From: an uncultured Flavobacteriaceae bacterium
GTDB lineage: Bacteria; Bacteroidota; Bacteroidia; Flavobacteriales; Flavobacteriaceae
Direction: 5' to 3'
DNA length: 64,000 nt
Assembly: GCA_938017825.1 (NCBI GenBank)
Contig: CALIJE010000042.1
Coordinates: 56,938 to 120,937 of the forward strand
Position 1 is the stretch's first letter. Each line of letters begins with the position of its first letter. Positions 26,277 through 28,475 of this stretch are shown piece after piece. Position numbers and translations under genes: made by a program. The notes under the pieces were generated by a model. The model worked only from the letters and a program-made list of their open reading frames with translations. It was not told the origin of the DNA and searched no databases.

Positions 26277-26308
26277 TATAGTAGAGTCGTAACATATATC
26301 TCATTTTT

Positions 26309-26385
26309 ATAAGCAAATTAACTTATATTGTAAATTATTAGCAAATAAGCTTATATTTTTATATATTAGCGCTTTAGCTTATATA
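26309..26385 (+). repeat. Three ~21-bp repeat units at exact 28-bp period
   Basis: 26309 ATAAGCAAATTAACTTATATT; 26337 ATTAGCAAATAAGCTTATATT; 26365 ATTAGCGCTTTAGCTTATATA; ends 2 bp before the ATG of the SatD gene. Confidence 0.75.
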
Positions 26386-26387
26386 TT

Positions 26388-26999
26388 ATGATAGCAATTA
26401 TTACAGGGGACATCATTAATTCAGAGACGCATAAAGCGTCCGAATGGATTGATGTGCTTAAAAATCAATTCTCTAAATGGGGTGAAACCCCAACAGAATG
26501 GGAAATATACAGGGGTGACGAGTTTCAGCTCAAAACAGAACCCCAACAAGCGCTAAGGCTAGCTATACAGCTAAAAGCGCTAATCAAATCAATTAAAGGC
26601 CTAGATGTGCGCATGGCCATAGGTATTGGTACAGAATCATTTAAGGGCGTTAGTATCAGCGAATCGAACGGTACGGCCTACCAACGTTCAGGACGAACTT
26701 TTGAGACCTTACGGAAAGAAAAAGTGAACCTTGCTATCGCAACGGGCAACAAAGAAGAGGATTATAGTCTTAATTTAATGCTTAAACTTGCCTTGGACTT
26801 TATGGATGAATGGACAATGGTATCGGCAGAAATAGTTGCCATTGCCCTAGCTAATCCCGAATTGGCCCAACAGGAAATAGCGGAGCAATTGCATATTCAA
26901 CAATCTGCCGTAAGCCAACGACAAAAAAGAGCGCGCTTGGATTTAGTCTTGCAACTGATGGACTATTACCCGCAAATCGTAAAAAGAATGAAACCATGA
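26388..26999 (+). CDS. SatD-family protein; palm-domain-like N-terminus plus C-terminal HTH
   Basis: ITGDIINSE, YRGDEFQL, VRMAIGIG motifs; C-terminal QQEIAEQLHIQQSAVSQRQKRARL. Confidence 0.8.
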   Translation: MIAIITGDIINSETHKASEWIDVLKNQFSKWGETPTEWEIYRGDEFQLKTEPQQALRLAIQLKALIKSIKGLDVRMAIGIGTESFKGVSISESNGTAYQRSGRTFETLRKEKVNLAIATGNKEEDYSLNLMLKLALDFMDEWTMVSAEIVAIALANPELAQQEIAEQLHIQQSAVSQRQKRARLDLVLQLMDYYPQIVKRMKP

Positions 27000-27694
27000 C
27001 CATATTCATAAAACTTTTATTGGCACATTTGATTGGCGATTTTCTTTTGCAGCCCAACAAATGGGTGTTGCATAAAGAAGCTAAGAAAGCTGGGTCAAAA
27101 TACCTATATATTCACGTGATACTTCATTTTGTAGTCACCATGATTTTGCTATGGGACTTGAAGTATTGGAAGCTGGCTTTACTCATCATGGCTTCCCATT
27201 ATATCATTGATTTGATCAAATTGTATAGCGCTCCACTTTTCAAACATCAGAATATTCCATTTTTTATAGATCAAGCACTGCATCTCATTGTTTTGTACTG
27301 CTGTGCTTTTTACACTGATTTGTTCGCACACACCACGGCCCTAATCGAATTGATCGACTGGCCATTGGTTACAGCAGCTTTTTTCCTCACTTTCCCCGCG
27401 GCAATTATTATGGGCAAATTGCTTGAACGAATGTCGGTTCAGATCGACATTGATCACGAATCGCTCCCGAATGCGGGCAAATATATCGGCATTATTGAGC
27501 GGCTATTCGTTTTGGTGTTCATCGTTTTGGGAAATTGGGCGAGTATTGGACTTTTGATTACCGCAAAATCGGTCTTTAGGTTTAATGACCTTAAGGACAG
27601 CAACAACAGAAAATTGACCGAATATATTTTAATCGGCACCTTATTGAGCTTTGGTCTTGCCATGGTAACGGGCCTAATTTACTTGAACATGTAA
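26996..27694 (+). CDS. DUF3307 integral membrane protein
   Basis: LLAHLIGDFLLQPNKWV...ASHYIIDLIK...FIDQALHLIV, multi-TM; start overlaps SatD stop by 4 bp. Confidence 0.82.
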   Translation: MTIFIKLLLAHLIGDFLLQPNKWVLHKEAKKAGSKYLYIHVILHFVVTMILLWDLKYWKLALLIMASHYIIDLIKLYSAPLFKHQNIPFFIDQALHLIVLYCCAFYTDLFAHTTALIELIDWPLVTAAFFLTFPAAIIMGKLLERMSVQIDIDHESLPNAGKYIGIIERLFVLVFIVLGNWASIGLLITAKSVFRFNDLKDSNNRKLTEYILIGTLLSFGLAMVTGLIYLNM

Positions 27695-27698
27695 TGCT

Positions 27699-28475
27699 AT
27701 GCGAATACTCCTGGCTTTAGTTCTATTGGCCCAATCCTTTCAAATCTATTCTCAAACAGAACAATTTGAATCTTTTGATGGTACCACAATTGTGTATACC
27801 GATGAAGGCCAAGGCAAACCAATTTTACTCATACACGGTTTTATTAATACAAGAAAAAGCTGGGATAGAAGCGTTTTAAAAGAGATGCTTATAGCTAAAG
27901 GCTATAGGGTCATAATTCCCGACCAAAGGGGAAATGGGGATTCTGACAAACCGCAAGACGATGCATCCTATCAAAATAATGCTGAGGTAAAAGATCTTGT
28001 TGCATTGATGAATCACCTTGGTATAAAGAAGTACAAGGCGATTGGCTATTCGCGTGGCAGCATTATACTTGCAAAATTGCTCACCAAAGACAAGCGAATT
28101 AAAAAGGCAGTATTGGGTGGTATGGGCATCGATTTTACGAATTCGGAATGGGAGATTCGAAAGATGTTCGCCGAAGCCTTTGCCGGGAACACAAATGAAA
28201 CCACTGAAGGCGCGGTCGCATACGCAAAATCCATAAAAGCGGATTTGCGTTCCTTGCACTTACAGCAAAAATATCAACCCGTAACCACTAAAAAAGAACT
28301 GGCCAAAATAAAGCGAAAAATACTGATTTTGGCTGGTGATGTTGATACTTCAAATGGAAATAAAGAAGCACTTAGCAAGGCCTTTCCCAAAGGAACATTA
28401 CAAATCGTAAAAGGGGATAATAATACGACCTATCGAACGAAGGGATTTTCAGAGGCAGTCTTATCATTTCTTTGA
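27699..28475 (+). CDS. Secreted alpha/beta hydrolase
   Basis: Signal peptide; IHGFINTRKSWD, nucleophile motif GYSRGS; 4 bp after the DUF3307 stop. Confidence 0.88.
   Translation: MRILLALVLLAQSFQIYSQTEQFESFDGTTIVYTDEGQGKPILLIHGFINTRKSWDRSVLKEMLIAKGYRVIIPDQRGNGDSDKPQDDASYQNNAEVKDLVALMNHLGIKKYKAIGYSRGSIILAKLLTKDKRIKKAVLGGMGIDFTNSEWEIRKMFAEAFAGNTNETTEGAVAYAKSIKADLRSLHLQQKYQPVTTKKELAKIKRKILILAGDVDTSNGNKEALSKAFPKGTLQIVKGDNNTTYRTKGFSEAVLSFL

Follow-up and report, generated by a model that had tools for sequence, protein, structure and literature searches.

The locus examined here raises the question of what a SatD-family protein does beside a membrane protein of the DUF3307 family. In the window, meaning the whole stretch of 64,000 nucleotides that was analyzed, satD (26388..26999, on the forward strand, as are all window features given below) encodes a predicted palm-domain/helix-turn-helix (HTH) regulator of 203 amino acids, of which residues 2-188 match PF16264 at 38 bits, against a gathering cut-off of 29. 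The membrane partner gene (26996..27694) encodes 232 amino acids, of which residues 3-111 only match PF11750 (DUF3307), again above the gathering cut-off (93.8 bits versus 23; E 1e-26). A 4-bp overlap (ATGA) joins the two genes, and a third ORF, encoding an alpha/beta hydrolase with a likely signal peptide (27699..28475; Abhydrolase_1, E 2e-19), begins after a 4-bp gap. An earlier note on this DNA had read all three as one cassette. The ORFs, overlap and gap are as it described them, and the SatD peptides which it quoted lie where it placed them (D8; GDE at 43-45; VRMAIGIGT at 74-82; the HTH at about 160-183). The hydrolase, however, is a lineage-specific neighbor, as a homologous ORF adjoins the pair mainly in a Maribacter/Zobellia/Arenibacter-like clade, and we rejected it as part of the conserved system. 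Incidentally, in the window hydrolase Asn (GDNN) replaces the expected catalytic His, which every one of the 16 relatives aligned retains (as GDHN or similar); the window copy may be inactive. For the remaining two genes we propose, with a probability of about two in three, that SatD represses one membrane protein, regulates its own synthesis and is probably gated by a nucleotide.

The linkage on which any such proposal depends, and which the earlier note had suggested checking, proved near-universal. Across 130 Bacteroidota loci, the partner adjoins SatD on the same strand in 94 of the 95 loci retrieved via SatD, the sole exception lying at a contig end. A SatD-like gene stands just upstream in 33 of the 35 Bacteroidota loci retrieved via DUF3307, and both genes are present in 78 of 80 named genomes, mostly with the 4-bp overlap. 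Occurrence of the cassette is patchy among relatives (65/149), and all ten genus genomes examined possess it. Flavobacteriaceae copies sit among fixed housekeeping neighbors (one upstream gene in 38 loci, and another pair in 36), which argues against a defense island there and led us to reject that reading. The pair is also found on plasmids of Vibrio, Segatella, Pseudoalteromonas, Enterobacter, Pseudomonas, Sphingomonas, Agrobacterium and haloarchaea, and on a Fusobacterium replicon. Three IMG/VR contigs bear it, one of which (L221) has neighbors that by eye appear phage-like (endolysin-like and terminase-like); a tblastn search of phage records for SatD and DUF3307 returned none. Such carriage on plasmids and prophage-like contigs argues for a portable benefit. 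Among individual loci, the 3,770-bp mobilizable E. coli plasmid pEC34A (L214, NC_019077.1, 1792-3481) carries no obvious cargo besides a SatD-like/DUF3307 pair, its other annotated genes being Rop, MobA and one small ORF; plasmids of the same size in Klebsiella are its relatives, and a blastn search for its cassette in complete E. coli genomes, a collection that may omit pEC34A itself, found none. DUF4365 genes adjoin the cassette in L246 and L218 (an Agrobacterium pAt and an Enterobacter plasmid), and two loci may hold frameshifted copies, with a shortened partner ORF in L076 and a split satD in L096.

The AlphaFold2 model of SatD is confident (pLDDT 94.9, pTM 0.91), and proceeds in the order beta-alpha-beta-beta-alpha-beta, an extra alpha-beta unit, and then a helical HTH region. 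The palm-like domain, delimited by the model, Foldseek and alignment, comprises residues 1-120 (26388..26747), and the C-terminal HTH region, supported by a Pfam search as well as the model, residues 144-199 (26817..26984), so that palm and HTH occupy a single confidently modeled chain, as befits a one-component regulator. Foldseek matches include GGDEF domains, class III adenylyl cyclases, Csm Cas10, GTP cyclohydrolase III and cUMP synthases (E 1e-3 to 1e-1, TM about 0.4-0.5; 4zmm at prob 1.00, 3qyy at TMt 0.55); as these E-values and TM scores are modest, the palm assignment is one of remote homology. Within this domain, the residues at D8 (codon 26409-26411) and D44 (codon 26517-26519) are Asp in all 218 aligned homologues (51/51 clusters at 50% identity), and S12, G43 and Q47 are nearly invariant. 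Thus the palm fold and HTH proposed in the earlier note are upheld, as is the importance that it attached to D8, G43 and D44; its E45 fared otherwise, since residue 45 varies (E 65%, S 28%, others), and the SatD motif is therefore GD-x-F-Q, not GGDEF. Among the findings which the note had named as telling against it (no palm fold, unconserved D8/GDE residues, no linkage), this variability is all that appeared.

In a Pfam search, window SatD matched no GGDEF family at E<=1 and no Guanylate_cyc model, and the Asn/Arg pair of class III cyclases is unrecognizable in its subfamily (residue 103 is R/E/K, and 102 mostly G). Membership of the GGDEF diguanylate cyclases was rejected, as both the GG(D/E)EF signature and the Pfam match are absent, and assignment by sequence to the class III nucleotidyl cyclases failed on the CHD match and the catalytic pair. 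Sequence searches of the PDB with SatD or partner profiles returned nothing relevant. Collectively, a palm with two metal-type aspartates, seen in a structure that is predicted only, supports an N-terminal domain of the GGDEF/class III cyclase type which keeps the aspartate pair.

Between the upstream gene and satD lies an array that is absent from the earlier note (26308-26383), and which consists of three predicted 20-bp dyads at 28-bp spacing. O1 (TATAAGCAAATTAACTTATA, 26308..26327) matches TATWAG-N8-CTTATA exactly and lies 28 bp from O2 (TATTAGCAAATAAGCTTATA, 26336..26355), which emerged from the dyad search, and O3 (TATTAGCGCTTTAGCTTATA, 26364..26383) stops 4 bp short of the satD start codon. 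A tentative Bacteroidota-type promoter (TTG ... TATATTTT, 26328..26359) would overlap O2; with one mismatch to TAnnTTTG, it is weak in the window. Comparable arrays are widespread. Over 122 distinct loci the repeated-dyad score averaged 8.7, versus 3.2 in dinucleotide shuffles, and 98 of these loci outscored all 20 of their own shuffles; in high-scoring arrays, 170 of 177 site intervals measure 28 or 29 bp. The Bacteroidota -7 element TAnnTTTG occurs in 52/112 arrays, versus 15% in shuffles, and in related loci its start frequently lies 2 or 4 bp within the right-hand edge of a site. The half-site itself varies by lineage (TATAAG, TATTAG, TATTAC, TATTCC, TATCGG, TATCAC, TTCAAC, GAAACA and more), and equivalent arrays of differing sequence were found in Vibrio (TTAGCC), a prophage-like contig (TGGCCG), Enterobacter (TCAACC) and haloarchaeal plasmids (GTTCGC), with similar ones discerned by eye in Sphingomonas and Natronosalvus. 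Arrays were weak or undetected in some loci (L094, L107, L125, L213, L216, L220).

These sites appear to be dedicated to satD. Throughout the 3.3-Mb genome, exact matches to TATWAG-N8-CTTATA are confined to the three satD sites, a count from which further sites could be missing as the assembly is 87% complete, and matches with up to one mismatch number 36, versus 110 for a reversed control pattern. A two-site operator pattern matched 11 of 21 genomes, in one cluster each, adjoining satD, with 0 control matches; each of the 10 closest genomes holds a single such cluster, beside satD.

Co-variation between protein and DNA connects the array to SatD itself. The predicted recognition helix spans residues 172-181 (26901..26930), and residue 177 (Q177 in the window, codon 26916-26918), the main specificity position, shares more mutual information with half-site bases 4-6 than any other SatD column (z 20.4, 11.1 and 7.6 at 90, 70 and 60% clustering), a ranking which, being made against other SatD columns, controls for shared ancestry, albeit imperfectly. 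With changes mapped onto a palm-domain-only tree, this residue again leads the 203 columns in concordance with half-site changes (15 shared, p 1.1e-5). The resulting code is legible: Q at residue 177 accompanies TAT[A/T]AG, R accompanies TATTAC, E accompanies TATC and K accompanies TATTCC, while the change Q172R pairs with replacement of TAT by TGT. Three Flavobacterium loci (L184, L199, L206) combine Arg-172 with TGTTAC, where Gln-172 relatives have TATTAC, and so constitute a natural specificity switch. It is hardly credible that the dyads serve some other regulator or element with no connection to SatD; lineages do differ in dyad sequence, but those differences follow SatD residue 177, and the pattern lies only at satD in the genomes searched. 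On the strength of the array, its uniqueness in the genome and the tracking of the half-site with residue 177, SatD is very probably a dedicated autoregulator, and the one-component regulator suggested by the earlier note is strengthened both by the array and by the way in which its sequence co-varies with the recognition helix.

The membrane partner is less conserved where it is best annotated. Its DUF3307 half (residues 3-111, 27002..27328) is a separable and replaceable module, whereas its invariant residues fall in the C-terminal ~75 residues, outside DUF3307. This membrane core (residues 156-229, 27461..27682; AGxxIGxLER...AAKSxxRF...EYxLIGTLxS) is kept in all partners examined, including partners of ~105-150 amino acids that lack DUF3307. 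Several Bacteroidota partners of 104-137 amino acids have little beyond the core, others join it to an unrelated N-terminal half, and core-only forms also occur among alphaproteobacterial partners and in one archaeal partner. As core-only partners and those with other N-terminal halves exist, and phages carry the DUF3307 half alone, the window partner is composed of two separable modules. The DUF3307 half, which the earlier note's wording would have made the conserved part of an effector, finds no support in that role, given the core-only partners and the invariant C-terminal residues. The predicted structure of the partner is all-helical; Foldseek gave no significant match in the PDB (best E 0.38), and no Pfam match was found for the C-terminal core. 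Against viral models, Foldseek matched stand-alone DUF3307 phage proteins only, over the N-terminal half only (prob about 1, E 0.17). One such ~119-amino acid DUF3307-like membrane protein (phrog_2470; Ralstonia phage RP12, A0A1L7N193) is classed under moron/host takeover, and no SatD lies beside these stand-alone phage proteins in the records searched.

In the mechanism that we propose, satD and the overlapping membrane gene would constitute a two-gene operon under its own control. The SatD palm, with its two invariant metal-type aspartates, would bind a metal-nucleotide ligand, with or without turnover, and the HTH, probably as a dimer, would bind the 20-bp dyads, which recur across the satD promoter as a phased array with a period of 28-29 bp. 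Given this position, SatD would most likely repress satD and the membrane gene until the state of the ligand changes. Repression is likely because the last site ends so close to the start codon, and because TAnnTTTG lies near site edges, such that occupancy would block polymerase; the sites may instead serve activation, or repression by looping. As the exact operator occurs in this genome only at the satD promoter, SatD would act on a single membrane protein as its dedicated controller and would not regulate globally, and we infer that the activity of this partner, with its invariant three-helix C-terminal core, is the output.

What that output serves may be approached from several directions. 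SatD could be a housekeeping stress-response regulator of an envelope function, such as pH, ion or membrane homeostasis, with the palm sensing a common nucleotide. We regard this as possible at clearly less than even odds: stable chromosomal contexts in Flavobacteriaceae would suit it, as would, by analogy, the satCDE genes of Streptococcus mutans, which share a cluster with ffh/ylxM that is linked to acid tolerance (PMC12077213), but carriage as cargo of small plasmids and prophage-like contigs would not. A further possibility is a toxin-antitoxin-like or phage-defense module, in which a toxic partner would be held down by SatD repression and perhaps by contact. Judged by sequence only, the first gene does appear to autoregulate via operators at its own promoter, and this dedicated autoregulation, the overlapping genes, the patchy distribution, the role of the pair as sole obvious cargo of the 3.77-kb pEC34A, its presence on prophage-like contigs, and the classification of related stand-alone proteins as phage morons all speak for such a module. 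Fixed housekeeping neighbors in Flavobacteriaceae in place of a defense island, retention in every genus genome examined, and the lack of a PADLOC match speak against it, and we consider it unlikely.

A catalytic role is not mutually exclusive with toxicity or defense. SatD might be an active nucleotidyl cyclase or synthase whose product gates the partner, in a Panoptes- or Pycsar-like manner, while the HTH only tunes expression. Complete conservation of D8 and D44 would be surprising in a dead domain, the Foldseek matches, cUMP synthases and Cas10 among them, are active cyclases, and canonical SatDs keep a G-x-x-F-H-x-A-R stretch which we liken to the VNxAxR region of cyclases. The combination of a palm enzyme with a membrane protein also echoes mCpol-2TMbeta (PMC12657230). 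Conversely, the catalytic Asn/Arg pair is not conserved across the family, E45 is variable, the all-helical partner has no recognizable nucleotide-binding domain, and PADLOC again offers no match; active synthesis of this kind is rather improbable. More ambitious still, SatD could synthesize a nucleotide signal, read its own product or substrate via the HTH, gate the partner, and control the operon through the phased array. This is less likely still; if true, the pair would amount to a self-contained second-messenger guard module, common to bacteria and archaea and borne on plasmids and prophages.

Under the reading that we prefer, SatD and DUF3307, families without known function, come together as one conserved operon in Bacteroidota, Proteobacteria, Fusobacteria and haloarchaea, a previously undescribed pair which recurs in bacteria and archaea. 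The operon contributes a cyclase-like sensor of the palm type that is fused to an HTH, as well as a membrane core domain without a Pfam match. Its regulation can be tested directly, given the fold, the invariant residues, the array of operators and a legible protein-DNA code, and whether such palms make a nucleotide or only sense one can be settled in one protein. The naturally matched pairs of operator and recognition helix might further be put to use as orthogonal repressors.

Comparison with known systems places the pair near several of them. Window SatD shares the GDI..S and GDxFQ motifs of the SatD family (PF16264), which takes its name from satD of the S. mutans sat operon. Our search found essentially no literature on SatD, DUF3307, PF16264 or PF11750: the SatD family is present there in name or annotation only, and no description of a SatD operator, fold or partner was found. 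Like GGDEF domains, class III cyclases and Cas10-mCpol, SatD has a predicted palm with one Asp on beta1 and another in the beta2-beta3 hairpin; it differs in having no GGDEF or CHD Pfam match, in a hairpin Glu that is not conserved, and in its fusion to an HTH. CdaR/PucR-type regulators, which we take to combine a GGDEF-like domain with an HTH, and of which structure 3onq (rank 42 of the SatD Foldseek list) is presumably one, similarly unite a degenerate-cyclase-like sensor and an HTH in one chain, but the kind of HTH differs, and we know of no conserved metal aspartates, membrane partner or phased array among them. CARF-HTH regulators (Csa3 and relatives) likewise couple a ligand-sensor domain to an HTH, and pEC34A SatD has weak, HTH-only similarity to Csa3/CasR models; the SatD sensor is, however, a palm and not a CARF domain, and no CRISPR context was seen. 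Closest in layout are Panoptes (mCpol-2TMbeta) and Pycsar, in which a small palm-type enzyme also stands beside a membrane protein. In Panoptes, palm enzyme and membrane protein form a guard system, with the enzyme's product holding a membrane toxin inactive; the paper describing it (PMC12657230) names neither SatD nor DUF3307 in its text. Membership in Pycsar, of which the layout had reminded the earlier note, or in another catalogued defense system found no support: PADLOC-DB 2.0 has no family for either window protein, so that no PycC-type cyclase paired with a known Pyc effector is seen as Pycsar would require, and Panoptes membership fails as the partner model is all-helical and without a PDB relative, versus a 2TM beta-barrel effector. 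The SatD partner thus has neither beta-barrel nor known effector domain, and what sets the SatD pair apart from both systems is a predicted DNA-binding domain with dedicated operators.
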